In this document: positions 14,729 to 29,740 of the stretch, piece by piece
Layout: each line of letters starts with the position of its first letter
How positions within the stretch are numbered: position 1 is the first letter of the stretch
NCBI RefSeq assembly: GCF_000311785.1
Contig: NZ_HE978540.1
Coordinates: forward strand, 203,869 to 267,868
DNA from: Brevibacillus massiliensis
GTDB lineage: Bacteria; Bacillota; Bacilli; Brevibacillales; Brevibacillaceae
Direction of reading: 5' to 3'
DNA length: 64,000 nucleotides
Translations under genes and position numbers: made by a program
Notes under the pieces: model-generated
What the model saw: only the letters and a program-made list of their open reading frames with translations
Databases searched by the model: none
Told to the model about the DNA's origin: nothing

Positions 14729-15598
14729 TCATTCGTTGCGAAGCGCCCTCGCCTGTTCCAGCACCCTCTTCGCCCGCACCGCCACCGGGTAGTCGACCAG
14801 TTTGCCGTTCACCTGAATCGCCGCGCTGCCGGACGCGACGGCTTCGTCAAAAGCGGCGGCGATGGCCTGCGCCTCTGCGATTTCCTCTGCTGTCGGCGAA
14901 AATGCCTGATGAATGACCGGAAGCTGGTCAGGGTGGATCGCCAGCTTGCCCTGAAAGCCGAGCTGCCTTGCCAACAAGGCATCCCGCTTCAGACCTTCCC
15001 CGTCCTTCACCTGGACGAACACAGCGTCGATCGGCGGTTCGATCTCTGCCGCCCGGGAGATGACCACCAACTGCGAACGCGCATACAAGATCTCCTTGCC
15101 CTCCGTCGTCAACTGCGCGCCGATATCAAGGGTAAAATCGACCGAGCCAAACGCCAGCCGCTTCACCCTGCTGCTGGCAGTGGCGATCTCATAGGCGCGG
15201 TAGAGTCCGGCAGCCGACTCGATCAACGGGACGATTTCCGTTACCCCAGTCGGCAGGTTGTGCTGTGCTTCTACCAGAGCAAGCTGGCCGCAGGCAGCCA
15301 GTATCTGTTCCTTGCCCGCTGCTTTCGGGAGCACGATCCCGGCGGTTTCCGGACTGACGGCGCCGTTGATGTCTCCCGGGAAAAATGGCGTCGACGGGTC
15401 ATTGACGCGGACGTACTGCACGCGGCTTTTATTCTCCCGCAGAGCCTGCCGCACCAACTGCCTGGCCTGCTCCTTCTCTGCCAGCGGCACGGCGTCTTCC
15501 AGATCGTAGATCAATACGTCTGCCGCCAGTTCCCCCGCCTTGGCCAACCGGCGTGACTGGTTGCCGGGGATGAACATCCACGAACGAAACAACGTCAT
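14729..15598 (-). CDS. CitE/HpcH-HpaI-family CoA lyase (citramalyl- or malyl-CoA lyase-like)
   Basis: TIM-barrel lyase of 289 residues in the CitE/Mcl/CLYBL group, which splits citramalyl-CoA to acetyl-CoA and pyruvate or malyl-CoA to acetyl-CoA and glyoxylate. It opens RSWMFIPGNQSRRLAKA. The signature YDLEDAV (31-37), R64 in VRVND, K92 in VLPKA, the metal ligand E127 in PLIESAAGL and D154 in GSVDFTLDIG are all present. IHPDQ near 220 is the usual C-terminal element. It is the last gene of the catabolic block, 14 bases after the fumarase beta subunit. Free-standing and without citrate-lyase alpha or gamma genes nearby, it is more likely a CoA-ester lyase than citrate lyase. Which CoA ester it cleaves is inference. 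Confidence 0.85.
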   Translation of the reverse strand: MTLFRSWMFIPGNQSRRLAKAGELAADVLIYDLEDAVPLAEKEQARQLVRQALRENKSRVQYVRVNDPSTPFFPGDINGAVSPETAGIVLPKAAGKEQILAACGQLALVEAQHNLPTGVTEIVPLIESAAGLYRAYEIATASSRVKRLAFGSVDFTLDIGAQLTTEGKEILYARSQLVVISRAAEIEPPIDAVFVQVKDGEGLKRDALLARQLGFQGKLAIHPDQLPVIHQAFSPTAEEIAEAQAIAAAFDEAVASGSAAIQVNGKLVDYPVAVRAKRVLEQARALRNE

Positions 15599-15612
15599 GG
15601 TCTACAGCCTCC

Positions 15613-16167
15613 TCACTCCTGTTTGAACTGCTGTGCGCCCTGCTGGTACAGGTCCTGGCCGTACATGTCGTTGATCACCACCGCCGGGAAGTTCTCGATG
15701 ACCAACCGGCGGATCGCTTCCGGGCCGAGGTCCTCATACGCTACCATCTCCTGGGATTTGATCGCTTTCGCCAGCAGCGCCCCCGAGCCGCCGACCGCTG
15801 CGAAGTAGACCGCCTTGTGTTGGACGATCGCGTCTTTTACTTCCTGATTGCGGTAGCCCTTGCCGATCATCCCTTTCAAGCCAAGTTCCAGCAGCCGCGG
15901 GGCGTATTTGTCCATGCGTCCGCTCGTCGTCGGCCCTGCTGACCCGATCACCTGCCCCGGTTTCGCCGGTGTCGGGCCGACGTAGTAAATCACCTGGCCT
16001 TTGACATCGAACGGCAGCGTTTCCCCTCTGTTCAGCGCTTCGATCATCCGCTTGTGGGCGGCGTCCCGGGCCGTGTAGACGACGCCGCTGATCAACACCC
16101 GGTCACCCGCGCGCAGATTTGCTGCCTCCTCTTCGGTCAGCGGGGCGGATATGTGTTTGGCCTCCAT
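15613..16167 (-). CDS. Class I fumarase-type hydratase, beta subunit
   Basis: Beta (C-terminal) subunit of a two-chain iron-sulfur hydro-lyase of the fumarase/tartrate dehydratase/mesaconase type, 184 residues. Key motif GSAGPTTSGRMDKY near residue 95 and GKGYRNQEVKDAI near 120. ATG 16167 follows GGAGGAGAGGGACG. It pairs with the alpha subunit 14 bases upstream. Related two-subunit enzymes hydrate fumarate to malate, mesaconate to citramalate, or both. The lyase downstream fits a citramalate or malate product. Confidence 0.88.
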   Translation of the reverse strand: MEAKHISAPLTEEEAANLRAGDRVLISGVVYTARDAAHKRMIEALNRGETLPFDVKGQVIYYVGPTPAKPGQVIGSAGPTTSGRMDKYAPRLLELGLKGMIGKGYRNQEVKDAIVQHKAVYFAAVGGSGALLAKAIKSQEMVAYEDLGPEAIRRLVIENFPAVVINDMYGQDLYQQGAQQFKQE

Positions 16168-16181
16168 CGTCCCTCTCCTCC

Positions 16182-17024
16182 TCACAGTACGGCATGCTTG
16201 TGGCGGCTGGCGTGGCAGTTGATGTTGACCGCCACAGGCAGGGCAGCGATGTGGCACGGGTAGATCTCAATCTTCACGTCCAGCGCCGTCGTCCGGCCGC
16301 CCATTCCCTGAGGGCCGATGCCCAGTTTGTTGCATTCCTGCACCAGTTCTTCCTCCAGAGCGGCAAGCCCAGGACGCGGGCTGCGTTCGCCAATGGGGCG
16401 AAACAGCGACTTTTTCGCCAGGTAGGCCGCTTTTTCAAACGTGCCGCCGATGCCTACGCCGACGACCATCGGCGGACAGGCGTTGGGGCCGGCGTTCCGA
16501 ACCGTATCGAGGATAAACGCCTTGACCCCGTCCAGTCCGTCAGACGGCTTCAGCATTTTCAGCGCGCTCATGTTTTCGCTGCCGCCGCCCTTGGCCGAGA
16601 AGTGAATCGTCATTTGATCTCCGGCGACTAATTCCACGTGAATCACCGCCGGCGCGTTATCCCCTGTGTTGACGCGCTCCAGCGGATGGCCGACGATGGA
16701 ATTGCGCAGATACCCTTCGCCGTATCCCTTGCGCACCCCCTCGTTGATCGCGTCGTACAAGCTGCCGCCTACGATCCGGCAGTCCTGCCCCAATTCCACC
16801 AAAAAGACGGCAATGCCGGTATCCTGGCACATCGGCACCCGCTCGGCAGAAGCGATCCGGGCATTTTCGATCAATTGGGACAGCACGTCGCGCCCCGTTT
16901 CCGAGACCTCGGTTCGCAATGCCCGCCTGAAGGCCTGCACCACATCTTCGCCCAGGTCGTAGTTGGCCTCTTGGCATAGATCTGCCACCGCTTCCACAAT
17001 CTCGTCGTACTGAACTTCTCTCAT
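16182..17024 (-). CDS. Class I fumarase-type hydratase, alpha subunit
   Basis: Alpha subunit, 280 residues, binding the catalytic [4Fe-4S] cluster. Likely ligands are C66 (PMCQDTG), C183 ([11 protein letters not shown]) and C270 (NINCHASRH). [13 protein letters not shown] near residue 147 and [15 protein letters not shown] near 193 are family landmarks. ATG 17024 overlaps the sdhB stop by four bases, so translation is coupled. The usual Bacillus fumarase is the cluster-free class II type, so an oxygen-sensitive class I enzyme fused to an SDH operon suggests a dedicated catabolic role. Confidence 0.9.
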
Positions 17025-17764
17025 GAGCGAAACCACCTTTTCCAGACATGCCGGTTGGCATCCCGATTTAATTCGCCCAAGGCCTTCGTCAGCGGAATCT
17101 CCTTGGGACAGACCTGCACGCAGTTTTGCGAACTGCCGCAGCCCGCGATCCCGCCGTCGCCTGCAGCCACATCCAGCCTCTGCTGCCGCATCATCGCGCC
17201 GGTGGGATGGGCGTTGAAGTAGCGGATCTGCGCCATCGCCTGCGGCCCCAGGTAAGGTGAGCGGTCATTCACATTGGGGCATGCTTCCAGACAGCAGCCG
17301 CAGGTCATGCAGGTGGCATAGGCGTAAGACTCCTGCTGCTGCTCCTGCGATATCCGCGGTCCCGGTCCCAGCGCGTACGTGCCGTCGATCGCGATCCATC
17401 CCTTGATGCTTTGCAGCGCGTCAAACATCCGTTGGCGGTCGACTGCCAGATCCTTTTCGACGGGAAACGTGCCCATCGGCTCCAGGGTGATCGGCTGTTC
17501 CAGCTTGTCGACCAGCGCTGAGCACGCTTGCCTGACCCTGCCGTTGATCACCATGCTGCACGCCCCGCAGACCTCTTCGAGACAGTTGGACTCCCAGGCG
17601 ACAGACCGCACTTTTTGGCCCATTGCGTTGACCGGATTTTTTTGTATCTCCATCAGCGCCGAGATCACGTTCATATTGGGGCGGTAGGCAACGACAAACT
17701 CCTCCCAGTACGGCTCGCTCTCCGGGCTGTCCTGCCGCTTCACTTTCAGTTGCACCGACTTCAT
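17021..17764 (-). CDS. sdhB: Succinate dehydrogenase/fumarate reductase iron-sulfur subunit
   Basis: Electron-transfer subunit of 247 residues. The N-terminal [2Fe-2S] ligands are C61, C66, C69 and C81 (ESNCLEEVCGACS). The C-terminal domain has C152, C155, C158 and C162 (CMTCGCCLEACP) plus C209, C215 and C219 (CGSSQNCVQVCP) for the [4Fe-4S] and [3Fe-4S] clusters. It follows sdhA by 21 bases and overlaps the fumarase alpha gene. The order sdhC-sdhA-sdhB matches the Bacillus type. Operon neighbours suggest the complex may oxidise succinate or a related dicarboxylate such as methylsuccinate; the latter is speculative. Confidence 0.95.
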   Translation of the reverse strand: MKSVQLKVKRQDSPESEPYWEEFVVAYRPNMNVISALMEIQKNPVNAMGQKVRSVAWESNCLEEVCGACSMVINGRVRQACSALVDKLEQPITLEPMGTFPVEKDLAVDRQRMFDALQSIKGWIAIDGTYALGPGPRISQEQQQESYAYATCMTCGCCLEACPNVNDRSPYLGPQAMAQIRYFNAHPTGAMMRQQRLDVAAGDGGIAGCGSSQNCVQVCPKEIPLTKALGELNRDANRHVWKRWFRS

Positions 17765-17785
17765 CTTCCAACTCCTCCTCCCCGG

Positions 17786-19576
17786 TTATTGGCGGGCTGC
17801 CGCAGCGTTCCCGGCCGCCGCCGAACCCGCCGCCTCTTTGACGACGTCGTACCGGCGAGGACGCGGCTTGATATGGGAGAGGTCGACAGGCTCGTAGCGG
17901 AAAAGCGGCCCCTCCGGCGTGTAGATGGCAAGCGTTGTCTTCAGCCAGTTCTCGTCGTCGCGCTCCGGAAACTCCGGCTTGTAGTGGGCTCCCCTGCTTT
18001 CGTTGCGGTTCAGCGCCCCGAGTGTAATGACCCGGGCCAGCTCCAGCATGTTCCACAGCTGCCGGACGAATGTCACGGTCCGATTGCTGTAATGGGATGT
18101 GTCATCGAGGCCGATCCGCTGCCAGCGTTCCATCAGCTCCTGCAGCTTTTCGTCCGTCTTCTGCAGGCGGTCGTTGTACCGTACCACGGTTACGTTTTCT
18201 ACCATCCAATCGCTCATCTCCACGTGAAGCTGATACGGATTTTCGTATCCGTCCATGCGCGAGATGCGCTGCAGGTACTCCTCCTGCCGCTTTTGCTCGG
18301 CGGCCAGCAGGCTGGTGGGCAGGTCTTTGGCCGACTGCTTCAGGCCGGCCGCGTATTGGACAGCTTTTGGCCCCGCGACCATACCGCCGTAGATAGCGGA
18401 CACCAGCGAATTGGCGCCCAGCCGGTTAGCCCCGTGGTACTGGTACTCGCACTCGCCGCAGGCGAACAGGCCGGGGATGTTGGTCATCTGGTTGTAATCG
18501 ACCCACAGCCCGCCCATCGAATAGTGCATCGCGGGGAAGATTTTCATCGGCACCTTGCGCGGGTCGTCGCCGACGAACTTTTCGTAGATGCTGAGAATTC
18601 CGCCCAGCTTCTGTTCGAGCTGTGTCTTCGGGAGGTGGGACAGGTCGAGATACACCATGTTTTCCCCGTTCAGCCCCAGCTTGAGATCGACGCAGACGTG
18701 GAAGATCTCCCGCGTGGCGATGTCGCGCGGCACCAGATTGCCGTAGGCCGGGTACTTTTCCTCCAGAAAATACCACGGCTTCCCGTCCTTGTAGACCCAG
18801 ATTCGCCCTCCCTCGCCGCGTGCCGACTCGGACATCAGCCTGAGTTTGTCGTCGCCGGGAATGGCCGTCGGGTGAATCTGGATGAATTCCCCGTTGGCGT
18901 AGAGCACGCCCTGCTGATAGGCGATGCTGTGGGCGCTGCCCGTATTGATCAGCGAGTTGGTGCTCTTGCGGTAGATCATTCCGATGCCCCCGGTCGCCAA
19001 GATGACGGCATCGGCGGGAAACGCGCGAATTTCCATCGACTTCAAATCCTGGGCGACGATCCCTCGGCACACTCCCTCGTCGTCCTTGATCAGGGACAGC
19101 ATCTCCCAGTATTCGAACTTCTCCACCCGTCCTTCCGATTCGTACCGGCGCACCTGCTCATCCAGGGCGTAGAGGATCTGCTGTCCGGTCGTCGCCCCGG
19201 CAAACGCGGTACGGGAGTACTTGGCTCCGCCGAGACGGCGAAAGTCGATCAGTCCTTCCGGCGTCCGGTTGAACGGCACGCCCATGCGGTCCAGCAGGTA
19301 TATGATCTCCGGAGCCGCCTCGCACATCGCTTTGACAGGCGGCTGGTTGGCCAGGAAGTCTCCGCCGAAGATCGTATCGTCGAAGTGTTCCCAGGTGGAA
19401 TCGCCTTCTCCCTTGGTATTGACCGCTCCGTTGATCCCTCCCTGGGCACAGACGGAGTGCGAGCGGCGAACCGGCACGACGGAGAACAGCTTGACCGTGC
19501 CGCCCGCCTCGGCGATTTTGATCACGCTCATCAGCCCGGCCAGTCCGCCGCCGACGACGATGATGTTTTCATTCAT
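17786..19576 (-). CDS. sdhA: Succinate dehydrogenase/fumarate reductase flavoprotein subunit
   Basis: Flavoprotein of 596 residues. FAD-binding VVGGGLAGL (7-15). H40 in RRSHSVCAQGGI is the expected covalent FAD attachment site. Substrate-site HPTAIPG (H235) and R253 in MSESARGEGG are present, as is HYSMGGLWVD-like capping sequence. Length and motifs fit the Bacillus SdhA group. RBS GAGGGGGATCTGAA precedes ATG 19576. Embedded between sdhC and sdhB in the catabolic block. Confidence 0.95.
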   Translation of the reverse strand: MNENIIVVGGGLAGLMSVIKIAEAGGTVKLFSVVPVRRSHSVCAQGGINGAVNTKGEGDSTWEHFDDTIFGGDFLANQPPVKAMCEAAPEIIYLLDRMGVPFNRTPEGLIDFRRLGGAKYSRTAFAGATTGQQILYALDEQVRRYESEGRVEKFEYWEMLSLIKDDEGVCRGIVAQDLKSMEIRAFPADAVILATGGIGMIYRKSTNSLINTGSAHSIAYQQGVLYANGEFIQIHPTAIPGDDKLRLMSESARGEGGRIWVYKDGKPWYFLEEKYPAYGNLVPRDIATREIFHVCVDLKLGLNGENMVYLDLSHLPKTQLEQKLGGILSIYEKFVGDDPRKVPMKIFPAMHYSMGGLWVDYNQMTNIPGLFACGECEYQYHGANRLGANSLVSAIYGGMVAGPKAVQYAAGLKQSAKDLPTSLLAAEQKRQEEYLQRISRMDGYENPYQLHVEMSDWMVENVTVVRYNDRLQKTDEKLQELMERWQRIGLDDTSHYSNRTVTFVRQLWNMLELARVITLGALNRNESRGAHYKPEFPERDDENWLKTTLAIYTPEGPLFRYEPVDLSHIKPRPRRYDVVKEAAGSAAAGNAAAARQ

Positions 19577-19589
19577 TTCAGATCCCCCT

Positions 19590-20207
19590 CTACCAAAATG
19601 AAATCAGCGTGCCCAGACCGACTCCCGCCAGCACGAGGAACAGCGCGGCGCGTACGGCGGAAGAGATCCGCTGCATACGCGGTCCGGTGGTGATCCCCCA
19701 GGTAATCAGACCCGTCCACAACCCATTGGAAAAGTGGAAGGTCGTAGAGATCACGCCCAGCACGTAAAAGCCGAAGACCACCGGCTGCTGCAGATGAGCC
19801 TGCACCGCCTCGTAATTGACCGGCGTTCCCAGAAACAAGCTGGACAGGCGGAAGGCCCAGAGGTGGTACAGGACAAATACCAGCGTGACCAGCCCGCTCA
19901 CCCGCTGCGCGTAAAACAGCCAGTTTTGCCGATAGGAGTAGCGGTACGGGTTGTTCTTCGCCATCGTTCCGATGTAAATCCCGTAGCCGGCGTGGTACAA
20001 CAGCGGCAGGGCAATCAACAGGATCTCGATCACCGGCAAAAAGGGAATGCCCAAGAGCGCCTCCACCTGCCGGTCGTACGCCTCTTTTCCCAACATGGCG
20101 ACGGCATTGGAGTACAGGTGCTCCAGCAAAAACAGGCCAAGCGGCACCAGGCCGGCCAGGGAATGGAGCCTCCCCAGCAAAAATCGTCGGCTGGACAATT
20201 CGCTCAC
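19590..20207 (-). CDS. sdhC: Succinate dehydrogenase cytochrome b558 subunit
   Basis: Membrane anchor of 205 residues with five hydrophobic segments. It holds the haem-ligand histidines expected of the Bacillus b558 family (RLHSLAGLVP, FLLEHLYSN, YHAGYGIYIG, VLYHLWAFRL, TFHFSNGLWTG). It passes electrons from SdhB to menaquinone. The GTG start at 20207 overlaps the MmgE/PrpD stop (GTGA), so the two are translationally coupled. Confidence 0.92.
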   Translation of the reverse strand: MSELSSRRFLLGRLHSLAGLVPLGLFLLEHLYSNAVAMLGKEAYDRQVEALLGIPFLPVIEILLIALPLLYHAGYGIYIGTMAKNNPYRYSYRQNWLFYAQRVSGLVTLVFVLYHLWAFRLSSLFLGTPVNYEAVQAHLQQPVVFGFYVLGVISTTFHFSNGLWTGLITWGITTGPRMQRISSAVRAALFLVLAGVGLGTLISFW

Positions 20208-21556
20208 GACACCCGACTCCCTTCATTCCAGAACTGGGTCAAGTCAGATACTTCCTCCAGCCCCAGGACAAGGTCGACGTAACGCTGCCTCGCTTCCTTT
20301 GGCAGATGGGCAGACAGGAGGTGAAACTTTTCCGTCAACTCGGCTGCTGTCACGGCGTTTTCGGGATCGCCCTTCGGGTAGTCGGCGACAAGCTGCAGCG
20401 TCTCGCCCTGCACCGTCTCCACTTCCATCGAGGAGCCCCAGCGGTCGGGATACGCCGCGTCGACAGCGGGATCGAGCGCAAGCTCCACCCGCTCCATCAG
20501 CGAGCGAACGGCCGGATCGTGCAGCATCTCCTCGGAAAAGTCGGCCAATCCGGCCCTGCCTTTGACCAGGGCGAGCGCGACGCAGAACTGCAGGCTGAAC
20601 TTCGCCGCATAGACCGTCTGCGGGTCGGGATTGTCGGTGATCGCCAGGACGGATTGGTAGCCCCCGACACGTATCCGCCGCACCTCCTGCGGCCCAATTC
20701 CGCGCTCGCGGCGCAGCTTCAGGGCGAGGTCGACCGCCGGATGGGTGTGGCGGCACGAAGCGTGAATTTTAAAAGAATTTTCCGTAATTTTAAAAGAACT
20801 GCCAAGCCCGTCAACGATCCGCGTCTCGTCGCAGGACTCCGTCATCGCCCGGAAAAAGCCCCGCTCCCCTTCGAGGATCCTGGACGGTCCGGTAAAACCC
20901 TTCTTCGCCAAGAGGGCGGCCAAGAGTCCGTTCATCGCCGCCTTGCCGGTGTGCAGCTGCTTGGACATCGCGCCGTCGACGATGAACTCCCACAAGCCTG
21001 CCGCCTGTGTACCCGCGTTGCCAAGGGCGTGGACGATTTGCTGTTCATCCAGCTCCAGCAGCTTGGCTGCAGCCGCGGCCGCGCCAAACGTACCGCAGGT
21101 GGCGGTGTTGTGCCAGTAGCGGTAATGGGACGGGCTGACCGCTTCGCCGATGCGAAAACAGACATCGTAGCCGATCGCAACCGCGGTGATCAGGTCTTTT
21201 CCGCTTTTCCGCTTCCATTCGGCAACAGCCAGCGCCGCCGGAATGACCACGGTAGCAGCGTGGATGATTGACGCTTTGTGGATGTCGTCCAGCTCTACGA
21301 CGTGGGAGGCCGCTCCATTGACGAGGGCGGCGTGCGTGACCGAGGAGACGCCGCCGGTGACCAGTGTCGCCTGGCTGCTGCCGCCCAGTTCTTTTGCCAG
21401 CTCATCGATCATCCGCACCGGCAGTGCGGCCGTGCCGGCCAGCGCTGAACCGAGCCAATCCAGAATACACAGCTTGGTGAACGCCGCCACTTCGTCCGGA
21501 AGGTCCGCGTAGCGGGTCCTGACGATAAAATCAGCCAATTGTCTGCTGTGGGACAT
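20204..21556 (-). CDS. MmgE/PrpD family protein
   Basis: Protein of 450 residues in the MmgE/PrpD family (2-methylcitrate dehydratase, cis-aconitate decarboxylase and relatives). Landmarks are FTKLCILDWLGSALAG near 30, the active-site segment LVNGAASHVVELDD near 82, and the conserved FKIHASCRHTHPAVD near 275. ATG 21556 follows GGAGGCGAAGTAAC and lies directly after sucD. An upstream ATG at 21586 lies inside sucD. An MmgE/PrpD gene also accompanies the itaconate genes of Pseudomonas aeruginosa (recalled, PA0878-PA0886 region), which supports a C5-dicarboxylate role. Reaction not known here. Confidence 0.88.
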   Translation of the reverse strand: MSHSRQLADFIVRTRYADLPDEVAAFTKLCILDWLGSALAGTAALPVRMIDELAKELGGSSQATLVTGGVSSVTHAALVNGAASHVVELDDIHKASIIHAATVVIPAALAVAEWKRKSGKDLITAVAIGYDVCFRIGEAVSPSHYRYWHNTATCGTFGAAAAAAKLLELDEQQIVHALGNAGTQAAGLWEFIVDGAMSKQLHTGKAAMNGLLAALLAKKGFTGPSRILEGERGFFRAMTESCDETRIVDGLGSSFKITENSFKIHASCRHTHPAVDLALKLRRERGIGPQEVRRIRVGGYQSVLAITDNPDPQTVYAAKFSLQFCVALALVKGRAGLADFSEEMLHDPAVRSLMERVELALDPAVDAAYPDRWGSSMEVETVQGETLQLVADYPKGDPENAVTAAELTEKFHLLSAHLPKEARQRYVDLVLGLEEVSDLTQFWNEGSRVS

Positions 21557-21557
21557 G

Positions 21558-22494: not shown

Positions 22495-23712
22495 TCAGTA
22501 CAAATCCGGATAAGCGGAGCGCATCCGCTGAAGCATCGTTGCCGCCGCCTCGCAGATCGTCACGTCCTCTCCGTAGTACTCCACGCCCGCTTCTGTGAAG
22601 ATCTGTTTGCCCAATGTGTCATTGACTCCCGCCTCGCGGACGACCACCGGAAAAGTCTTGGGATCGACGCCCATCTCGGCGAGCGCCCGGACGATCCCCT
22701 TGGCCATCACATCGATCTGCGTGTTGTTGGTGATGTTGTGGGCGACAAACAGCCCTTTGACCCCGGGCTTGGAGAGAATTCCTCTGGTCAAGCCGTACAC
22801 TTTTTCCTCGGATGGATTGCCGCCCGTTTCCGTGTAGTTGGCCGGACGTCCGCCCAGATCGACCAGCGCGTCAAAGCTGAGCAGGCTGCCCCCGCCGCCG
22901 CCGCACATAAAGCCGATCTCTCCGCCGTCCATCTCTGTGTAGCGGGCAGTTCCGCGGTAGTCGGCGTCGTTGACGGCGATTATCTGCCGCTCCAGCTCCG
23001 TCAGCGGACGCCACGCCCGCTCGCTGCCTACCTCCACCTTCCCTTCCAGCTCCTTCTGGCGGAACATCGCCGAGTCGTCGACCGCCATCACCGTGGCCGC
23101 CGCCATCAGCTCTCCCGCTTTGGTGATGACCAGCGGATTGACTTCCAGCAGGTAGCAGTCGTAGCGCAAAAACGCTTCGTACAGCTTGCCTGTGACCTCG
23201 CCCGCCCGCAGCAGCAGCCTGTCATCCAGGCCGAGACGGCTCCAGATTTCTTTCGTTTTGTATCCGGCCAATCCGTACAGCGGGTCGACGTGCTCGATGA
23301 CCACCTTGTCCGGGTGCTCTGCGGCAAGCGTTTCGATCTCCACACCGCCCTCGGTTGAAGCGATGATGACGGGCATTTGCCTGTTTTTGTCGATCGTGAT
23401 GGAAATGTACAGTTCCTTGGCAATCTCCAATTTTTCTTCGACCAGGATCTGCTCGACAGGAAAGTGGCTGACCGTCATATTGAGCAGTATTTGCGCCTGC
23501 TCCCTGGCTTCCTCAGCCGTGTCGGCAAATTTGACCGCCCCCGCCTTGCCCCTTTTTCCGACCGGTACCAGCGCCTTCAGCACAACCGGTTTGCCAAGCT
23601 GTTCACAGAGCTTGGCTGCCTGCTCAGACGTCCCGGCCACCCCGTTTTTCGGCACGGGCACGCCCGCCTGCCCGATCAACTGCTTGCTGTGATGCTCCAA
23701 AATTTTTCCCAC
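22495..23712 (-). CDS. Divergent succinyl-CoA ligase beta-like subunit (ATP-grasp)
   Basis: ATP-grasp subunit, 405 residues from GTG 23712, which has GGAGGGG at 5 bases. A longer in-frame reading to 23793 would translate the operator and is rejected. The N-terminal ATP-grasp domain includes KPVVLKALVPVGKRGKAG and LEVNPLVI near residue 195. The C-terminal domain has FMCGGGGGSLLSFDALVDLGG where ordinary SucC reads GLVNGAGLAMATMD, and ETGGNPSEEKVYG where it reads DVGGGA. This departure suggests a different carboxylate (malate, citramalate, itaconate). First gene of the long operon driven from the promoter at 23749-23777. Confidence 0.82.
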   Translation of the reverse strand: MGKILEHHSKQLIGQAGVPVPKNGVAGTSEQAAKLCEQLGKPVVLKALVPVGKRGKAGAVKFADTAEEAREQAQILLNMTVSHFPVEQILVEEKLEIAKELYISITIDKNRQMPVIIASTEGGVEIETLAAEHPDKVVIEHVDPLYGLAGYKTKEIWSRLGLDDRLLLRAGEVTGKLYEAFLRYDCYLLEVNPLVITKAGELMAAATVMAVDDSAMFRQKELEGKVEVGSERAWRPLTELERQIIAVNDADYRGTARYTEMDGGEIGFMCGGGGGSLLSFDALVDLGGRPANYTETGGNPSEEKVYGLTRGILSKPGVKGLFVAHNITNNTQIDVMAKGIVRALAEMGVDPKTFPVVVREAGVNDTLGKQIFTEAGVEYYGEDVTICEAAATMLQRMRSAYPDLY

Positions 23713-23748: not shown

Positions 23749-23777
23749 AGGATATTGGATCCAATTATGTGCAGCAA
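23749..23777 (-). promoter_or_regulatory. Promoter and GntR-type operator A (ligase-sdh-fumarase-lyase operon)
   Basis: Minus-strand -35 TTGCTG (23777-23772), 17-base spacer, -10 TATCCT (23754-23749). The perfect palindrome ATTGGATCCAAT (23754-23765) sits in the spacer and touches the -10. The wider box GGATATTGGATCCAAT recurs at two other promoters of the block. It would be occluded by a dimeric repressor. Leader to GTG 23712 is about 30 bases. Confidence 0.72.
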
Positions 23778-23789
23778 AGGACTGATTAC

Positions 23790-24482
23790 TCAATCCCTAC
23801 GCTTTTTTTCACTGCTTAATTCCTGATGAATCAAATGTTCTTTAAACGCCTCACCTGTTCGCATGATGTGTTTGCGGATGACCTCAGACAGACGCCCCGC
23901 GTCACCTGCTTCGATCAACTGGAGCATTTCCCTGTGTTCGTTCAAGGAGCGCTCCATCTGACCGGGCAGCATGCCGGGCGTATGCGGCGGAAAGCCGTGC
24001 CACAGCATCTCCAAAATCATATTTGCCCGCCGCCAGTGACAGCCTTTTCGCAGCAGGCGGTGAAACTCCGCATTTTTGGCGATGAACTGCTCCGCGTTCC
24101 CATTCCCTGCGGCCGTTTCCATCTCTTTGTTCAACTGATGCAGCATTTGCTTGTCTTCGCTGCTCAGATTAGCCAGAAAACGCTCGGCTACGGCTGCTTC
24201 CAGGACAGATCGCAAATAGTAAATCTCTTCAATGTCGTCGGCGGTTACCTGCGTCACAATCGCCCCTTTATGCGGTTCCAGCGTGACCAGACCTTCTTTT
24301 TCCAACTGGCGCAGCGCCTCCCGAATCGGCATTCGACTGACACCCATGGCCTCTGCCAGCTCTTCCTGAACGAGCCGTTCTCCCGGCTGAAACTCCCGCT
24401 GCAAGATCGCCTCCCGCAGACGGGACACTACGCGCTCAAGCAGGGTGGAACGGTCATCTAATCGCAAGCGGCTTCGATTCAT
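23790..24482 (-). CDS. GntR/FadR-family (FCD) transcriptional regulator
   Basis: Regulator of 230 residues. The N-terminal winged helix covers about residues 10-75 (LREAILQREFQPGERLVQEELAEAMGVS... and IREALRQLEKEGLV). The C-terminal all-helical FCD domain has metal/ligand positions in the pattern E(F)HRLL, ...HREML and ...RKHI (about residues 125-215). FCD members commonly sense organic acids and repress their catabolic genes. It sits between the TRAP genes and the CoA-ligase operon, and three matching dyads lie at the promoters of this block. ATG 24482 is preceded by AGGAGATG at 8 bases. Confidence 0.9.
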   Translation of the reverse strand: MNRSRLRLDDRSTLLERVVSRLREAILQREFQPGERLVQEELAEAMGVSRMPIREALRQLEKEGLVTLEPHKGAIVTQVTADDIEEIYYLRSVLEAAVAERFLANLSSEDKQMLHQLNKEMETAAGNGNAEQFIAKNAEFHRLLRKGCHWRRANMILEMLWHGFPPHTPGMLPGQMERSLNEHREMLQLIEAGDAGRLSEVIRKHIMRTGEAFKEHLIHQELSSEKKRRD

Positions 24483-24576: not shown

Positions 24577-25851
24577 TTACCTTGACATTTGCACCGGCAG
24601 CCAGAGCGACAATTCCGGCCAGACGACGATGATCACCAGCACGACGATCATCAGGCCGATAAACGGCATGACGCCCTTGACCACCTCTTCCAGCTTTGCC
24701 CGCGAGATGCCGCTGACCACAAACAGGTTCAATCCGACAGGCGGCGTAATCATCCCCAATTCCATGTTTACCGTCATGATGATCGCAAAGTGGATGACGT
24801 CAATGCCCAGCAGTTTCAGGATCGGCAGGAAGATCGGCAGGGTGATCAGGATAATCGACGTGGGCTCCAGGAACATGCCCATGATGAAGAACAGGATGTT
24901 GGACGCGATCAAAAACGTCCATTTATTTATATCGCCTTCCATAATCCAACTGGCGATATTCTGCGGCACCTGTTGATTTGTCAGATACAGACCGAACACG
25001 GTAGCGCCGGCGATGATAAAGAAGATCATCGAACTGGTGTTGACCGTCTCCCGCAAAATGGTACGGGTGTCCTTCCACGTAATCTGGCGGTAGACGAACA
25101 CGGCGACCAACAGCGAGTAGACACAAGCTACGACAGAGGCCTCCGTCGGCGTCACCACCCCGAGGTAGATCGAGCCCAGGATCAAAAACGGCAGGAAGGC
25201 GGCCGGCAGCGCCTTTACACTAAGCTTGATCCGCTCGTTCCAGTCTGTCTTGGGCAGACGTCCGAAATTTTTCACTTTGGCATAGATGATCGCGACGACG
25301 ACCAGTACAGCGGTCAAGAACAGCCCGGGTAAAAAGCCCGCCATAAACAGTTTGCCGATCGACTCCTCCGCGACTGTTCCGTACACGATGAGCGGGATCG
25401 ACGGCGGGATGAGAATCCCCAGCGTACCGGAGGCGGCCACCAGCCCCATCGCGTAGCGCTTGCTGTACCCGGCCTCCACCATTCCCGGGATCATGATCGC
25501 CCCTACAGCCGCAGCGGTAGCCGGACTTGATCCGGAGATCGCCGCAAACACCGCACAGGCGAGAATCGTGACCACTGACAATCCGCCGGCATAATGGCCC
25601 ACCCAGGCCCGCAGCGCTTCGATCAGCGCCTTGGAGATTCCGCCGCGGGCCATCAATACGCCGGCGAGGATAAATCCGGGAATCGCCATCAGCGTGGCGA
25701 CGTTCAGGGAGGAGAAGATTTTTTGCGGCAGTACATCCAGGTTGAACCCGCTGTCAAGGAGCGCCAGCGAAGCCGATACCACCAGCGAGATGGCCACGGG
25801 AACGCGAAGCAGGAGCAGCACGAAGAAGACGAGAAAGACTATCCATTCCAC
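24577..25851 (-). CDS. dctM: TRAP transporter large membrane subunit DctM
   Basis: Twelve-segment ion-coupled translocation subunit, 424 residues. Landmarks are IPGFILAGVLMARGGIS near 58, SGSSPATAAAVGAIMIPGM near 106, LGILIPPSIPLIVYG near 140 and ITPPVGLNLFVVSGI near 370. It overlaps dctQ by 13 bases. With DctP and DctQ it imports carboxylates, using an ion gradient rather than ATP. The gene set around it points to a C4 or C5 dicarboxylate. Confidence 0.95.
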   Translation of the reverse strand: MEWIVFLVFFVLLLLRVPVAISLVVSASLALLDSGFNLDVLPQKIFSSLNVATLMAIPGFILAGVLMARGGISKALIEALRAWVGHYAGGLSVVTILACAVFAAISGSSPATAAAVGAIMIPGMVEAGYSKRYAMGLVAASGTLGILIPPSIPLIVYGTVAEESIGKLFMAGFLPGLFLTAVLVVVAIIYAKVKNFGRLPKTDWNERIKLSVKALPAAFLPFLILGSIYLGVVTPTEASVVACVYSLLVAVFVYRQITWKDTRTILRETVNTSSMIFFIIAGATVFGLYLTNQQVPQNIASWIMEGDINKWTFLIASNILFFIMGMFLEPTSIILITLPIFLPILKLLGIDVIHFAIIMTVNMELGMITPPVGLNLFVVSGISRAKLEEVVKGVMPFIGLMIVVLVIIVVWPELSLWLPVQMSR

Positions 25852-26330
25852 TCGGCCTTCACCTCTTTTTTCAAACTGGACAGCAGGTTGTCAATGAAGC
25901 GGAATCCCAACATCAGTCCGCTGAGCGGGATGACGAGATAGACGATCCAGAGGTAGATCCCCACATCCGTCGACTTTTGCTGTGTCACCCAGTAAAGCGA
26001 CAGCAGCTTGCCGCCGAAAAAGATAAAGAAAATACAGAACAAGACGCCCAGTGCGTTGGAAAACACGTTAAACACCTTTTGGAAAAAGGGGGGAACACGG
26101 TCGAACAAGATGTCTACCTGAATGTGATGCCCTTCCCGCAGCGCTACCCCAAGGCCTGTCAGCGTTCCCCAAACGATGCAGTAGGTAGAGATCTCATCCA
26201 CCCATGCTTTCGGGTTGTTGAATACGTAGCGGCAGACCACTCCGTAAAAGATCAGGAACACGCCGACAGCGATTAGCGTCCCAGCGAAGTAATCCTCAAA
26301 TGCGGCATATCTTTCCCGCCATTTTTCCAT
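25839..26330 (-). CDS. dctQ: TRAP transporter small membrane subunit DctQ
   Basis: Four-segment small subunit of 163 residues, with LIAVGVFLIFYGVVCRYVFNNPKAWVDEIS and the family phrase WGTLTGLGVALREGHHIQVDIL near residues 55-75. It joins DctM in the membrane complex; the two genes overlap by 13 bases. A 9-bp hairpin separates it from dctP. Confidence 0.93.
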   Translation of the reverse strand: MEKWRERYAAFEDYFAGTLIAVGVFLIFYGVVCRYVFNNPKAWVDEISTYCIVWGTLTGLGVALREGHHIQVDILFDRVPPFFQKVFNVFSNALGVLFCIFFIFFGGKLLSLYWVTQQKSTDVGIYLWIVYLVIPLSGLMLGFRFIDNLLSSLKKEVKAEWNG

Positions 26331-26362
26331 CGATCCACTCTCCTTGTTTAGATGATTGCAGG

Positions 26363-26392: not shown

Positions 26393-26420
26393 AACGTTCC
26401 AGCGGAGCAGTCGTCGTCCT

Positions 26421-27452
26421 TTACAGTTGTCTGGCGCCGTCAATGATCTCCTTGCCGACCGATTCAGCAAAATCGCTGTATACCGCTTCCATCACGTTGA
26501 CGAATTTTTCCCGGTCCGCGTCGCTAAGATCGATGATCTTCATCTTTCCGGAGCCCCTCAGCTTGTCTTCTGAATCCTTGTCCAATTGAACCGCCAATTC
26601 GCGTTCGTATTTGGTCGCTTCCGCCATCGACTCGTCGAACGCCTTGCGGATATCCTCAGGAAGCTCGCTGTACCACTTTTTGTTGGTCAAGACGATGTAG
26701 TCGATCCGGCCGTGGTTGGAGACAAGCAGGTTCTTCTGCACTTCCTCGTACTTTTGCGTATCGATGTTGTTCCAGGTATTCTCCTGTCCGTCGACCGTCC
26801 CTTGCTGCAGGGCGGTGTAGGTTTCCCCGAACGGTATGGTGGCAGCTCCCGCTCCCAGCGCCTTAAACTGGGCCTCCAGCACCTTGCCGGCCTGTGTCCG
26901 GAACTTTTGCCCCTTGAATTCGTCCGGGCTTCCGATCGGCTTGCTCGAGGTAAATACCTTAAAGCCGTTTTCCCACATGGCGAGACCTTGCAGGTTTTTG
27001 TCCTCGAGGGAACTCATCAGCTTTTTGCCAAGTTCGCCATCCCAGAATTTGATGACGGAATCGTGATTTTTAAACAGGAACGGCATGTCGACGATCTGAA
27101 AAGCCGGATTAAACCCGACCAGCTTTGTCGCAGAAGGCGCGATGACTTGGACGTTGCCCGCCTGCAGCGCTTCCAGCTCGTCCTTGTCGCCGTACAGCTG
27201 CGAAGACGGATACACCTCTACCTTCACCTTGCCGCCCGTCTTTTCCGCCATCAGCTCGGCAAATTTATCCGCTGCCTTGCCTTTGGGGCTGTCTGCCGTA
27301 GTCACGTGAGAAAACTTGATCGTCAGCGGGTTCTCTTTCGTATACGCCGAGGCGTCCTGGGTTTTGGCACCGCCACCGCCGCCGCATCCCGCTGCCGCAA
27401 GCAGCAGGGCTGACAGTCCTCCCGCCATCAACATTTTCCAACCTTTTTTCAT
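26421..27452 (-). CDS. dctP: TRAP transporter solute-binding lipoprotein DctP
   Basis: Extracytoplasmic binding protein, 343 residues. ATG 27452 follows GGGGGGCTTTTC. Lipoprotein signal MKKGWKMLMAGGLSALL with lipobox AAAGC, then a glycine linker. The DctP core has IKFSHVTTADSPKGKAADKFAE, and the signature Arg region GQKFRTQAGKVLEAQFKALGA contains the Arg that binds substrate carboxylate in this family. GTVDGQENTWNNI is also typical. First TRAP gene, 112 bases after maoC. Confidence 0.95.
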   Translation of the reverse strand: MKKGWKMLMAGGLSALLLAAAGCGGGGGAKTQDASAYTKENPLTIKFSHVTTADSPKGKAADKFAELMAEKTGGKVKVEVYPSSQLYGDKDELEALQAGNVQVIAPSATKLVGFNPAFQIVDMPFLFKNHDSVIKFWDGELGKKLMSSLEDKNLQGLAMWENGFKVFTSSKPIGSPDEFKGQKFRTQAGKVLEAQFKALGAGAATIPFGETYTALQQGTVDGQENTWNNIDTQKYEEVQKNLLVSNHGRIDYIVLTNKKWYSELPEDIRKAFDESMAEATKYERELAVQLDKDSEDKLRGSGKMKIIDLSDADREKFVNVMEAVYSDFAESVGKEIIDGARQL

Positions 27453-27564
27453 GAAAAGCCCCCCTTGTCCGCAATAAAATTCTTGCGTGATGAGATAACG
27501 ACTTTGCAAATGAATCCGAATCTTCAGTTAATCACAGCAGCACTCCCCCTTTCAGCTCATACGC

Positions 27565-28080
27565 TTACTGCTCCCCAAGCAGCTGCCGGACGCGGCTGGA
27601 AAGCGGCTCCGGACCATGCCCCCGCTTGTACACCATGAAAGTACGGTGAAACTCGATCACCACTTTGTTGTCCTGGTTGTACCCGACTGTCTTTACCCGG
27701 ACGATTCCGACGTGGGGACGTGACTTGGATTCCCGCTTCTCCAGTATTTCGCTGTACGAGTAAATCGTATCTCCTTCGAACACCGGGTTGGGCAGCCTGA
27801 CTTCATCCCAGCCGAGATTGGCCATCACGTTTTGCGAGACGTCAGCGACCGATTGGCCTGTCACCAGCGCCAGCGTAAATGTGGAGTCCACCAGCGGGCG
27901 CCCGAAGTCCGTCTTGGCAGCGTACTGGGCGTCAAAGTGTATCGGATTGGTGTTTTGCGTAAGCAGGGTGAACCAGATGTTGTCAGTCTGTGTCACGGTC
28001 CTGCCGAGCGGATGGGGATAAATGTCACCCACTTCAAAATCCTCGTAAAAACGACCTGTCCATCCTTCCTTGATCCCCAT
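27565..28080 (-). CDS. MaoC-like hydratase (itaconyl-/mesaconyl-CoA hydratase-like)
   Basis: Hot-dog-fold enoyl-CoA hydratase, 171 residues from ATG 28080 (AAAGGAGGAGAC upstream). The hydratase motif GDxNPxH appears as QNTNPIH (42-48): Asn45 and His48 are kept but the catalytic Asp is Asn43. The stretch IHFDAQYAAKTDFGRPLVDSTFTLAL resembles hydratases that act on branched C5-CoA esters. In itaconate degradation such an enzyme turns itaconyl-CoA into citramalyl-CoA, the substrate of the CitE-like lyase encoded at the far end of this block. First gene after operator B. Specificity is inferred from context. Confidence 0.85.
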   Translation of the reverse strand: MGIKEGWTGRFYEDFEVGDIYPHPLGRTVTQTDNIWFTLLTQNTNPIHFDAQYAAKTDFGRPLVDSTFTLALVTGQSVADVSQNVMANLGWDEVRLPNPVFEGDTIYSYSEILEKRESKSRPHVGIVRVKTVGYNQDNKVVIEFHRTFMVYKRGHGPEPLSSRVRQLLGEQ

Positions 28081-28120
28081 GTCTCCTCCTTTTTCGACTC
28101 GACTTGCCAAAGTGCGAGAA

Positions 28121-28149
28121 TGGATATTGGATCCATTTTTGAATTATCA
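28121..28149 (-). promoter_or_regulatory. GntR-type operator B with weak promoter (maoC-dctPQM-gntR)
   Basis: The box GGATATTGGATCCATT (28122-28137) matches the boxes at 23751 and 29713. On the minus strand -10 TATCCA (28126-28121) lies 17 bases from a poor -35 TGATAA (28149-28144). The dyad ATTGGATCCATT has one mismatch. It lies 41 bases upstream of the maoC ATG. Confidence 0.65.
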
Positions 28150-28208
28150 TATTATTCCTTACAGTCACTTGTCAATTATTTTTTAAGCGCTTTCATTCAC
28201 GAAAAAGC

Positions 28209-29681
28209 TTACAAGTAACCCAACCAAGACCACCAGGTTACAGCCATCAAATACGTGACAGCGGTCGTTGCCAGCGTCAGCCAAAAGCCCGGTTTAAAGT
28301 AGTCCTGCTGCGTCACCCAGCCGGTGCCGTGCACCATGACACCCGGAATCGTCTCCACCACCAGAATAAACCCGAACAGACAGGTTAATCCGGCCACAAA
28401 GGAAAGCAGGAGCGCCGGAGCGTTCGGCGAGTGGGCGGAGAGCGCCACGACGACCGGAACAGTGGCGATTACAGCCGTTGACACGTTGGACGTCACTTTG
28501 TGGATCAACTGGGTGAGAACCGCTACGGTCAAGACCGCCAGGGCAGGATTGGAAAAGAGGTATAATGTCAGATCGTTTTCCATCCACCTGGAAAGATAGT
28601 CGGTCACCCCTGTCTCGTACAGCGCCCGTCCCAATGACAAGGTGACGCCGAGCATGATCAGAGGCGCAAATTTAACGTCGAGGATCTTGTCCCAGTCTGC
28701 GATCTTGATCCCCGGCCAGGCCATCAGTACGGCACCGATCAGCGCGGGAATCACCGGCGGCCATCCGTGGATTCCTTCGAGTGCCCACATGATGCAGACG
28801 GCAACCAGAATGGCAAGCAGCCGCTTCTCCTCCCGGGTAATGGGCCCAAGCTCGCCGATCATCGCCTTCATTTTGACTTTCAATCCGCCGGGAATTTCGT
28901 CCTTTACGGGAAAACAGCGGTGCAGCACCCACCAGGAGACGGGAATCAGGATCAGCCACATCGGAAAGGCAAGGATCAGCCAATCTACGTACGTCACGTG
29001 CTGGTGCAGGTATGTGTTGATCAAGTCAACCGTGATAACGTTGCCAATCGCCGCCGGCAATATGGCAACACCGCTTATGCCGCAGCTCACAACCACGCCC
29101 ATCATCAGTTTTTTGCCCATCACATCGCCTGATTTGATCCCCAGGATGGAGGCGATGGAAAAGACGATCGGCAGAAGCATGGCGGTCCTGACGGCAGCCG
29201 CCGGGATGAAGAAGGCCATGACCTGCGGAATCAGGATAATGCCGGCCAGCACGCCTCCCTTTTTATCCCCCAGCCAATAGAGCAGTTGATACGCCAACCG
29301 CTTGCCGAGCGATGTCTGCTCTACAGCGCTGGCGATCATCATGCCTGCCACGATCAGAAAAATGGCCGGCGAAGCAAAACCGGACAGGATCAGATCGGTT
29401 GAAACGGCTCCCGATATCGGGAGCAAAAACAAAACCAGCACGGCGGTCATGGAGAAAGGAATCGGCTCCAGCACCCAAAGTACGATGACGGCCAGCGTGA
29501 TCGCCAAAGTCACTCTCGGCGCATACTCCATGTAATCCTGCAGGCCAAAATAGATCAGAACAAAGGCAAGTGCTGACAGTGCAAACCAGAGCGGTTTTTT
29601 AAGCGTAAGCCACAGCCCTTTGTGATGCGGCTTCGGCGAGACGCCCTCCCTCTCGGTCTGCGGATTGCTAAGCGTCGACAT
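28209..29681 (-). CDS. DASS/SLC13-family anion symporter
   Basis: Integral membrane carrier, 490 residues from ATG 29681 (GGGGGAACGTCT upstream). A longer reading to 29741 would translate operator C. About 12 segments; landmarks are LWVLEPIPFSMTAVLVLFLLP near 90, FASPAIFLIVAGMMIASAVE near 125 and the second SNT-type motif TSNVSTAVIATVPVV near 395. Family members carry dicarboxylates, citrate or sulfate with sodium. It lies upstream of maoC with the same operator box. The block thus has two unrelated uptake systems, perhaps high affinity (TRAP) and high capacity (DASS). Confidence 0.88.
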   Translation of the reverse strand: MSTLSNPQTEREGVSPKPHHKGLWLTLKKPLWFALSALAFVLIYFGLQDYMEYAPRVTLAITLAVIVLWVLEPIPFSMTAVLVLFLLPISGAVSTDLILSGFASPAIFLIVAGMMIASAVEQTSLGKRLAYQLLYWLGDKKGGVLAGIILIPQVMAFFIPAAAVRTAMLLPIVFSIASILGIKSGDVMGKKLMMGVVVSCGISGVAILPAAIGNVITVDLINTYLHQHVTYVDWLILAFPMWLILIPVSWWVLHRCFPVKDEIPGGLKVKMKAMIGELGPITREEKRLLAILVAVCIMWALEGIHGWPPVIPALIGAVLMAWPGIKIADWDKILDVKFAPLIMLGVTLSLGRALYETGVTDYLSRWMENDLTLYLFSNPALAVLTVAVLTQLIHKVTSNVSTAVIATVPVVVALSAHSPNAPALLLSFVAGLTCLFGFILVVETIPGVMVHGTGWVTQQDYFKPGFWLTLATTAVTYLMAVTWWSWLGYL

Positions 29682-29711
29682 AGACGTTCCCCCAATATCT
29701 GTTCTATTTTT

Positions 29712-29740
29712 AGGATATTGTATCCAATTGTATTTGTCCA
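29712..29740 (-). promoter_or_regulatory. Promoter and GntR-type operator C (DASS transporter)
   Basis: Minus-strand -35 TGGACA (29740-29735), 17-base spacer, -10 TATCCT (29717-29712). The dyad ATTGTATCCAAT (29717-29728) lies in the spacer, and the extended box GGATATTGTATCCAAT matches A and B. The leader to ATG 29681 is about 25 bases. Confidence 0.72.

Follow-up and report, generated by a model that had tools for sequence, protein, structure and literature searches.

The gene block

We analyzed a 64-kb stretch of the Brevibacillus massiliensis genome (genome size 5.06 Mb; the whole stretch is referred to here as the window), which contains a block of 15 genes that probably lets its host use methylsuccinate, mesaconate, and itaconate, apparently through its own copy of succinate dehydrogenase (SDH) in place of enzymes known from Pseudomonas. 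All 15 genes lie on the minus strand and are open frames without internal stops in the open reading frame (ORF) calls. They follow the order divalent anion:sodium symporter (DASS), MaoC, dctPQM of a tripartite ATP-independent periplasmic (TRAP) transporter, FCD-GntR, SucC-like, SucD-like, MmgE/PrpD, sdhCAB, fumarase alpha, fumarase beta, and CitE-like. As the frames are intact and the family of each protein is backed by a Pfam match above the gathering score (Pfam was run on all 15, NCBIfam models on ten), the gene set, order, and single strand given in a preliminary description of this DNA are borne out.

The block extends from DASS at 29741 (mechanical ORF) to CitE at 14729, and neighboring genes often overlap or almost abut (GntR/SucC -4, MmgE/SdhC -4, and SdhB/FumA -16 on the mechanical ORFs). 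Some mechanical ORFs start too early, and likely starts were chosen from alignments and ribosome sites: DASS 29681, MaoC 28080, DctP 27452, GntR 24482, SucC 23712, and fumarase beta 16170. The features are listed in window coordinates, with scores in bits.

29717-29728, no strand: operator-like palindrome upstream of DASS, 1 mismatch to ATTGGATCCAAT
28209-29681, minus: DASS-type carboxylate carrier; Pfam Na_sulph_symp 200 bits; the mechanical ORF runs to 29741
28126-28137, no strand: operator-like palindrome upstream of MaoC, 1 mismatch to ATTGGATCCAAT
27565-28080, minus: MaoC-type hydratase, likely an itaconyl-/mesaconyl-coenzyme A (CoA) hydratase; RipB_Ich 216 bits (cut-off 340), Pfam MC_hydratase
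26421-27452, minus: DctP, TRAP solute-binding protein; Pfam DctP 339 bits, relatives in the PDB
25839-26330, minus: DctQ, TRAP small permease; Pfam DctQ 118.5 bits
24577-25851, minus: DctM, TRAP large permease; Pfam DctM 410.5 bits, 45% identical to DctM of the P. aeruginosa cluster
23790-24482, minus: FCD-type GntR regulator, presumed repressor; Pfam FCD 73.7 and GntR 71.6 bits, both above cut-off
23754-23765, no strand: operator-like palindrome between GntR and ligase, exact ATTGGATCCAAT
22495-23712, minus: ATP-grasp ligase beta subunit, proposed citramalate-CoA ligase; below the SucC and malate-CoA ligase cut-offs, acid-site motif like that of citryl-CoA synthetase
21558-22469, minus: ligase alpha subunit; NCBIfam score below the succinyl-CoA synthetase alpha cut-off
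20204-21586, minus: MmgE/PrpD, proposed (S)-(R)-methylsuccinate isomerase; 47.8% identical to PA0881, 7/7 named residues
19590-20207, minus: SdhC, cytochrome b558 anchor; TIGR02046 134.7 bits (cut-off 96)
17786-19576, minus: SdhA paralogue with Leu115, proposed methylsuccinate dehydrogenase; NF006392 1076 bits (cut-off 855)
17021-17764, minus: SdhB iron-sulphur subunit; NF006391 402.5 bits (cut-off 244)
16182-17036, minus: class I fumarase alpha, proposed mesaconase; NF004885 426 bits (cut-off 276)
15613-16170, minus: class I fumarase beta; NF005310 287 bits (cut-off 238)
14729-15598, minus: CitE-like C-C lyase, proposed (S)-citramalyl-CoA lyase; TIGR01588 230 bits and RipC_Ccl 180 bits, both below cut-off

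Recurrence of the cluster

When 397 other genomes were searched at each level, 5 from the class (E <= 1e-80) and 11 from the phylum (E <= 1e-90) had relatives of the ligase beta subunit; ten further named loci are mostly from Cytobacillus. The search of relatives for the same gene set, which the preliminary description had suggested, recovers most of the genes in 15 other Bacilli loci (L016-L030), all of them picked through the ligase. SucD, MmgE, CitE, both fumarase subunits, a DASS homologue near the ligase, and an FCD-GntR homologue each occur in 15/15 of these loci, SdhA in 13, and MaoC in 2. Another 12 loci, from 11 genomes in other parts of the phylum, include two on short contigs and one nearly identical pair (L113 and L114). 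CitE adjoins the ligase in 10 of the 12, and MmgE occurs in 5, a close SDH in 4, a distant SDH in 1, and fumarase in 2. Recurrence in the Bacilli loci, and in part in the 12 others, rules out a chance gene neighborhood. The core of the cluster is the ligase-lyase pair, with isomerase, SDH, and fumarase as frequent partners and MaoC as an optional one, a distribution that suggests that hydration takes place mainly on the free acid.

An SDH paralogue without the dicarboxylate-site phenylalanine

Elsewhere, the host genome encodes a second SDH flavoprotein (74% identical to the cluster SdhA), a second SucC (38% identical to the cluster SucC-like subunit), and a homologue of class II fumarase that scores 533 bits where the family model requires 665, so the SDH, SucC, and fumarase of the cluster look like extra copies. 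A further class I fumarase-like protein (36% identical) is also present. The features of a Bacillus-type SDH are found in the cluster enzyme: SdhC, SdhA, and SdhB all score above their family cut-offs, and the catalytic residues are kept. In 15 aligned cluster copies, the positions of H232, T244 (Ser), E245, R287, H355, and R390 match housekeeping SDH. AlphaFold gave a poor model of this SdhA (predicted local distance difference test, pLDDT, 54).

When cluster and housekeeping SdhA sequences are aligned, 20 columns discriminate the two groups, four of them within residues 115-121, a seven-residue stretch chosen for its clustering value after the data had been seen. By alignment, SdhA position 115 is Phe116 of E. 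coli FrdA and Phe141 of W. succinogenes FrdA, the latter being one of four crucial dicarboxylate-site residues together with Arg301, His369, and Arg404 (PMC10739449, with site information also from PMC5773532). The Phe is replaced by Leu, Val, or Ala in 21 of the 21 cluster SdhA sequences examined, a count that is raw as to kinship, the Bacilli cluster SdhA forming one clade. The 21 comprise the window (Leu115), the 13/13 intact copies of L016-L030, L176, L177, L113, L114, L116, L118, and L121. Leu is found in the 16 presumed Bacilli, and the five sequences from elsewhere in the phylum have Leu, Leu, Val, Ala, and Leu. Within this set, L016, L017, L019-L022, L024, and L025 are closely related to one another, and L176 is a 4.9-kb contig with SdhB, a second flavoprotein, and fumarase, on which the SdhA frame is broken and no ligase is seen. 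The SdhA of L118, the last of the five, is distant and fumarate-reductase-like (36%), and the loss of Phe there is thus probably independent.

Position 115 is Phe in 42 of 43 non-cluster complex II flavoproteins, namely 12/12 second copies in the same genomes, 22/22 best-scoring single copies in other genomes (from the best 30 loci of 267 genomes), and 8/9 others. The E. coli and W. succinogenes FrdA sequences (both Phe) stand outside the 43, and L139-L150 and L005 from the host's own genome were left out of the count, as their Arg-x-Phe-Gly-Gly motif did not align; two of these, L143 and L145, have Phe. Applied to a previous version of the count, a rough test gave p = 1.7e-9 on raw numbers and 1.2e-5 after thinning. 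A smaller side chain at position 115 would fit a methyl-substituted succinate.

A locus linking the SDH-fumarase pair to known enzymes

One locus, L177, was found through the SDH search and not through the ligase search. Over about 11 kb, it holds GntR, MaoC, homologues of Mcd and Ict, CitE, a major-facilitator carrier, SdhCAB, FumAB, and an operator-like site, and it is without a ligase. Its acyl-CoA dehydrogenase is 68% identical to PA0879 (Mcd) and its CoA-transferase 58% identical to PA0882 (Ict). These two identities rest on BLAST, as NCBIfam gave no named match: the five L177 proteins scanned all stayed below the cut-offs, and the models matched included none named for Ict or Mcd. Compared with the window, the L177 proteins are 80% (MaoC), 50% (CitE), 82% (SdhA, with Leu), and 69 and 68% (FumAB) identical. 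It follows that the SDH-fumarase pair travels with homologues of proven itaconate and methylsuccinate enzymes, and that the window ligase stands in for Ict. Neither Ict, a family III CoA-transferase, nor Mcd is found among the 15 block genes, the rest of the genome not having been searched. The preliminary description had seen a ligase in place of a CoA-transferase and an inserted SDH-fumarase module; both points agree with the absence of Ict from the block and with the SDH and fumarase genes beside Ict and Mcd homologues in L177.

Isomerase, ligase, and partner enzymes

The MmgE/PrpD protein is 47.8% identical to the protein at the PA0881 position of L068, a P. aeruginosa plasmid record with the PA0878-PA0886 gene order, which had the top bit score among the matches listed (best 40 of 713 plasmid records). 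For PA0881, (S)-(R)-methylsuccinate isomerase activity is proven, and enzymes of its kind are reported to be inactive on itaconate, citraconate, mesaconate, citramalate, aconitates, and (R)-malate (PMC12290011). Seven residues of PA0881 (H88, E91, H102, Y148, H152, K202, and K266), which the L068 protein carries at the published numbers, are all kept in the window protein (7/7).

The ligase falls below the NCBIfam cut-offs for succinyl-CoA synthetase (beta, 278 bits against 375.55; alpha, 297 against 353.2), its beta subunit scores 219 bits on the malate-CoA ligase model NF010647 (cut-off 604), and it forms a separate clade of its own. All 24 members of this clade have the pattern GGGG[G/A]S ... 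GGNP ... NN[T/S], as in the acid site of citryl-CoA synthetase (A for G once and S for T once), a motif found in 0/12 housekeeping SucC; the single malate-CoA ligase in the alignment also lacks it and has a SucC-like site. We take the NNT stretch to match the citrate-contacting Asn346-Thr348 of human ATP-citrate lyase. Our best guess for the substrate, from this motif, would be a tertiary 2-hydroxy acid such as citramalate. Citrate cleavage, with ligase and lyase acting as a citryl-CoA system, was considered and rejected, as it would leave SDH, fumarase, and isomerase idle.

Both subunits of the heterodimeric class I fumarase score above their cut-offs, and class I fumarases hydrate mesaconate, which the class II enzyme FumC does not (PMC4682846). 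The window MaoC appears to be a one-domain relative of RipB/mesaconyl-CoA hydratase and scores best on the RipB/Ich model. The CitE-like lyase has the family motifs common to Ccl, RipC, and Mcl references; it scores 180 bits on RipC_Ccl (cut-off 375) and is 35% identical to PA0883. In the CitE tree, window-type lyases fall outside both the Ccl and the Mcl references, and the substrate is not settled by phylogeny. With regard to transport, Val234 of IctP replaces a Leu of DctP and gives space for the methylene group of itaconate (PMC12599236); this column has Val in ten of ten named loci and in L113, and Ile in the window, L026, L028, L029, and L117.

Vicinal oxygen chelate (VOC) proteins are present in three of the related loci (L016:19834-20214, L018:16757-17173, and L023:16293-16673). 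The one in L016 is 59% identical to PA0880, a 2-hydroxyparaconate lactonase (PMC9875883).

A shared operator-like palindrome

The peptide NWIQYP, found at the over-long N-termini of DASS and SucC, is a DNA element read as protein. The element, ATTGGATCCAAT, occurs exactly before the ligase and with 1 mismatch before MaoC and before DASS, 42-52 bases 5' of the likely start codons. The ligase palindrome (23754-23765) overlaps the -10 of a promoter-like site at 23793-23764, and 8 bases separate the MaoC palindrome from the preceding -10, which belongs to the best promoter-like site (28175-28146, 11/12).

With up to 1 mismatch, 44 sites are found in 374 kb (the window and the 15 related Bacilli loci), compared with a simulated mean of 2.4 (10 runs). 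Each of the 41 sites outside the window is at most 90 bases from the start, as set by BLAST, of SucC, CitE, DctQ, MaoC, DASS, or GntR; none is inside a matched gene, and each of the 15 loci has the palindrome at gene starts. Because these loci are related, the sites are not independent. With up to 2 mismatches in the window alone, the number of palindromes is not above chance (5 against 3.4 expected, with 23 of 100 shuffles reaching 5), and the case rests on position and conservation. A 16-base form, allowing 2 mismatches genome-wide, has 3/3 sites within the cluster in G042 and likewise in G267, 2/3 in G020, and in G013 one of 6 in the cluster stretch and another just beyond on the same contig. 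The host genome has 7 sites, and the cluster holds 3 of the 4 with at most 1 mismatch. A reversed control pattern gave 0 or 1 match per genome.

With three upstream regions sharing the palindrome, a feature absent from the preliminary description, the block looks like one regulon. The FCD-GntR protein may be a repressor of its units acting through ATTGGATCCAAT near the -10, and its putative target DNA would be ATTGGATCCAATATCC.

Elsewhere in the genome (G000), a fourth operator-like site lies at C10 73749-73764 (in L125), with 1 mismatch in 16; the genes near it are, by eye, presumably 5-oxoprolinase/hydantoinase subunits.

Variation among loci and flanking features

A second flavoprotein is encoded in the operon of 12 of the 15 Bacilli loci (for example, L027:2933-4525 and L029:6862-8418) and is absent from the window, L023, L026, and L028. 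For those of L027 and L029, the best matches, with scores short of the cut-offs, are TfrA fumarate reductase and L-aspartate oxidase; the operon of L018 retains no other flavoprotein. L023 has SDH remnants at 13588-14288 and DASS in two frames at 7923-9214, as in a decaying cluster copy or a poor assembly. The clusters of L018 (titled Chryseobacterium sp. ISL-80) and L025 (Pseudomonas sp. ISL-84) are Cytobacillus-like, and the titles are probably wrong. L027 also contains a tartrate dehydrogenase above the PRK08194 cut-off (12986-14044) and a 3-hydroxyisobutyrate/tartronate-semialdehyde reductase-like gene (15632-16570). By eye, similar dehydrogenase and reductase genes are present in L016, L018, and L023, and the dehydrogenase also in L030; they are perhaps for hydroxylated C5 acids (itatartarate) or beta-methylmalate.

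L116 has an adenylosuccinate/argininosuccinate-lyase-like gene, named by eye, between its TRAP and SDH genes (14578-15960), and its product could free fumarate or mesaconate from an amino-linked precursor. In L113, L114, L117, L118, L120, and L121, regulator-like proteins near the ligase have an N-terminus that we take, by eye, to resemble the PrpR sensor. In the window, the block is flanked by what we take by eye to be gatCAB genes on one side and phosphatidylserine decarboxylase and aldehyde dehydrogenase genes on the other. The step 8001-10000 of the window has a G+C of 40%, compared with 49-62% in the other 2-kb steps, and is overlapped by an ORF at 9476-10504.

Comparison with known systems

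A close precedent is the P. aeruginosa PA0878-PA0886/C. necator system (Ich, Mcd, Msi, Ict, Ccl, and IctPQM), with which the window shares the isomerase, a CitE-type lyase, MaoC, TRAP genes, and the expected end products. The likeness to PA0878-PA0886 proposed in the preliminary description stands for the isomerase (48%) and the TRAP DctM (45%); the window MaoC has no BLAST match to PA0878. The window differs from these systems in having a ligase instead of a transferase and FCD-GntR instead of LysR, and its SDH and class I fumarase would act ahead of CoA activation. Some bacteria lack Ict in the cluster (PMC12290011); as the block has neither Ict nor Mcd, it lies outside the Pseudomonas cluster type, though it may work alike.

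PMC4682846 cites two related cases: mesaconate use by a class I fumarase in Burkholderia xenovorans, and a soil Bacillus with a mesaconate hydratase (Suzuki 1976, 1977), an activity to which the cited text assigns no genes. The conversion of mesaconate to (S)-citramalate by a class I-type fumarase, which we propose here, would be shared with them, but the window fumarase is in one operon with SDH, isomerase, and ligase. Hydrogenobacter citryl-CoA synthetase and citryl-CoA lyase likewise provide a SucCD-type ligase for a tertiary hydroxy acid, a separate lyase, and the acid-site motif; the expected substrate differs, and the window ligase is in its own clade. The malate-CoA ligase (Mtk) and malyl-CoA lyase of Aminobacter (L069) share the arrangement of a two-subunit ligase beside a CitE-fold lyase, but the acid site of that beta subunit is of the SucC type, and the subunit shares 33% identity with the window ligase.

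Succinyl-CoA synthetase acts on itaconate and succinate analogues, an ATP-dependent route by which an enzyme of SucCD type activates C5 dicarboxylates (PMC12290011, PMC9875883), but as a housekeeping side activity, whereas the window ligase is an extra, diverged copy within a cluster. The Bacillus-type SDH (b558, complex II) matches the window enzyme in its three subunits and catalytic residues, and the window enzyme has lost the dicarboxylate-site Phe. A title from 1983 states that methylsuccinate is dehydrogenated to mesaconate in rat (reference list of PMC8146994). This title and the side activity of SucCD on itaconate are precedents for the two activities proposed as new here: a dedicated complex II methylsuccinate dehydrogenase and a dedicated citramalate-CoA ligase. 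The available literature on SDH with methylsuccinate or mesaconate, on such CoA ligases, and on Bacillus or Bacillota clusters does not describe this arrangement, subscription papers being mostly outside its scope; the name methylsuccinate dehydrogenase appears there in one paper, for the enzyme next to the isomerase.

Proposed pathway and alternative explanations

We consider it probable that the block is an inducible regulon for C5 branched dicarboxylates and not for malate. In the predicted scheme, the DASS and TRAP carriers would import methylsuccinate, mesaconate, citramalate, and itaconate, and MmgE/PrpD would interconvert (S)- and (R)-methylsuccinate. The SDH paralogue would oxidize free methylsuccinate to mesaconate and pass electrons to quinone, the class I fumarase would hydrate mesaconate to (S)-citramalate, and the SucCD-like ligase would use ATP to form (S)-citramalyl-CoA, which the CitE-like lyase would cleave to acetyl-CoA and pyruvate. 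In an itaconate branch in the host genome, the ligase would make itaconyl-CoA and the MaoC hydratase would convert it to citramalyl-CoA. FCD-GntR would repress these units by binding ATTGGATCCAAT close to the -10. We infer each substrate and reaction, the use of quinone, and the action of the repressor from sequence; gene content, site conservation, the isomerase and SDH residues, and the linkage to Ict and Mcd homologues in L177 are direct observations.

Conversion of itaconate, mesaconate, or citramalate to acetyl-CoA and pyruvate had already been favored in the preliminary description, and the isomerase identity, SDH site, ligase motif, and L177 strengthen it; the TRAP evidence fits less strictly, with Ile and not Val at IctP Val234. 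Methylsuccinate, listed there only as a substrate for growth tests, now looks central.

Several observations weigh against this reading. Methylsuccinate isomerases are reported always to adjoin an acyl-CoA dehydrogenase, and 96% of them are in Pseudomonadota (PMC12290011); the window cluster is without Mcd, and the stretch of L177 that carries the Mcd and Ict homologues contains no MmgE gene. The Ile of the window binding protein is shared with a DctP whose ligand is not stated, and L116, L121, and L124 have Leu, Phe, and Ser at this position. By overall similarity, the ligase is closer to a SucC than to citryl-CoA synthetase (phmmer, 220 against 191 bits), as it is by fold (Z 38.8 for SucC beta against 31.1, with an AlphaFold model of pLDDT 88.4), so neither measure favors citryl-CoA synthetase. 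The CitE-like lyase is below cut-off on every model matched and 35-39% identical to Ccl references. Two of the 15 Bacilli loci lack an intact SdhA, one has SdhA without SdhB/C, and the operator scan found no operator at gene starts in the 12 loci elsewhere in the phylum. In G554 and G487, where the ligase has no adjoining SDH, the SDH elsewhere has Phe, and the non-cluster SdhA of L129 also has Leu. The L129 SDH may serve the same pathway, as the ligase cluster of its genome has no SDH; it adjoins a gene that, by eye, we take to resemble one beside SDH in L113, L114, and L118.

The preliminary description had named conversion of malate via malyl-CoA to glyoxylate as the main alternative. In its full C4 form, SDH and fumarase would take succinate through fumarate to malate, and a malate-CoA ligase and malyl-CoA lyase would yield acetyl-CoA and glyoxylate. 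The enzyme order would fit, C4 acids are the normal substrates of SDH and fumarase, and succinate-CoA ligases have been reported, by title, to make malyl-CoA in vitro (Nolte 2014, cited in PMC12290011). The tartrate/D-malate-type dehydrogenase and tartronate-semialdehyde-reductase-like protein of L027, with similar genes by eye elsewhere, would also suit such a route. We nevertheless regard it as very improbable: the host genome already has another SDH and a homologue of class II fumarase, the ligase has an acid site unlike the SucC-type one of the aligned malate-CoA ligase and reaches 219 of 604 bits on the model of that enzyme, L177 ties SDH to Ict and Mcd homologues, and neither a methylsuccinate isomerase nor the loss of Phe from SDH would have an evident role.

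A cluster for itaconate utilization or detoxification, consisting of ligase, MaoC, and lyase with SDH and fumarase as general metabolism only, would account for the best score of MaoC on RipB/Ich and for the TRAP and VOC proteins related to those of the itaconate cluster in P. aeruginosa, and itaconate is a known substrate of succinyl-CoA synthetase (PMC12290011, PMC9875883). This explanation is unlikely, as it leaves the SDH site change and the isomerase unexplained, and MaoC is found in 2 of the 15 related Bacilli loci compared with 15 for fumarase and 13 for SdhA. The same chemistry might instead act on another 2-substituted succinate (ethyl-, hydroxymethyl-, or longer) and release a 2-oxo acid other than pyruvate. 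The pocket residue is Leu, Val, or Ala depending on the locus, the isomerase pocket could accept larger substrates (PMC12290011), and the extra genes of other loci (second flavoprotein, 3-hydroxyisobutyrate-dehydrogenase-like protein, and tartrate dehydrogenase) suggest further acids. The high identity to a methylsuccinate-specific isomerase and the Ict/Mcd linkage in L177 make this quite improbable.

For the methylsuccinate pathway itself, we lean slightly toward a stronger form, in which the complex II paralogue is a dedicated, quinone-linked dehydrogenase of free methylsuccinate and the new ligase clade consists of dedicated ATP-dependent citramalate-CoA ligases. Together, they would constitute a CoA-late pathway in Bacillota, in place of the CoA-early acyl-CoA route used by Pseudomonadota, and different lineages would have rebuilt it from interchangeable modules. 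If true, complex II would have become specialized for a branched substrate, the change of a single residue (Phe to Leu, Val, or Ala) could serve to sort genomes, and a dedicated ATP-dependent activation of citramalate would be added. The pathway would also provide candidate genes for the mesaconate biochemistry of soil Bacillus from the 1970s and extend methylsuccinate turnover to Bacilli and other Bacillota, beyond the Pseudomonadota that hold most of the known isomerases.

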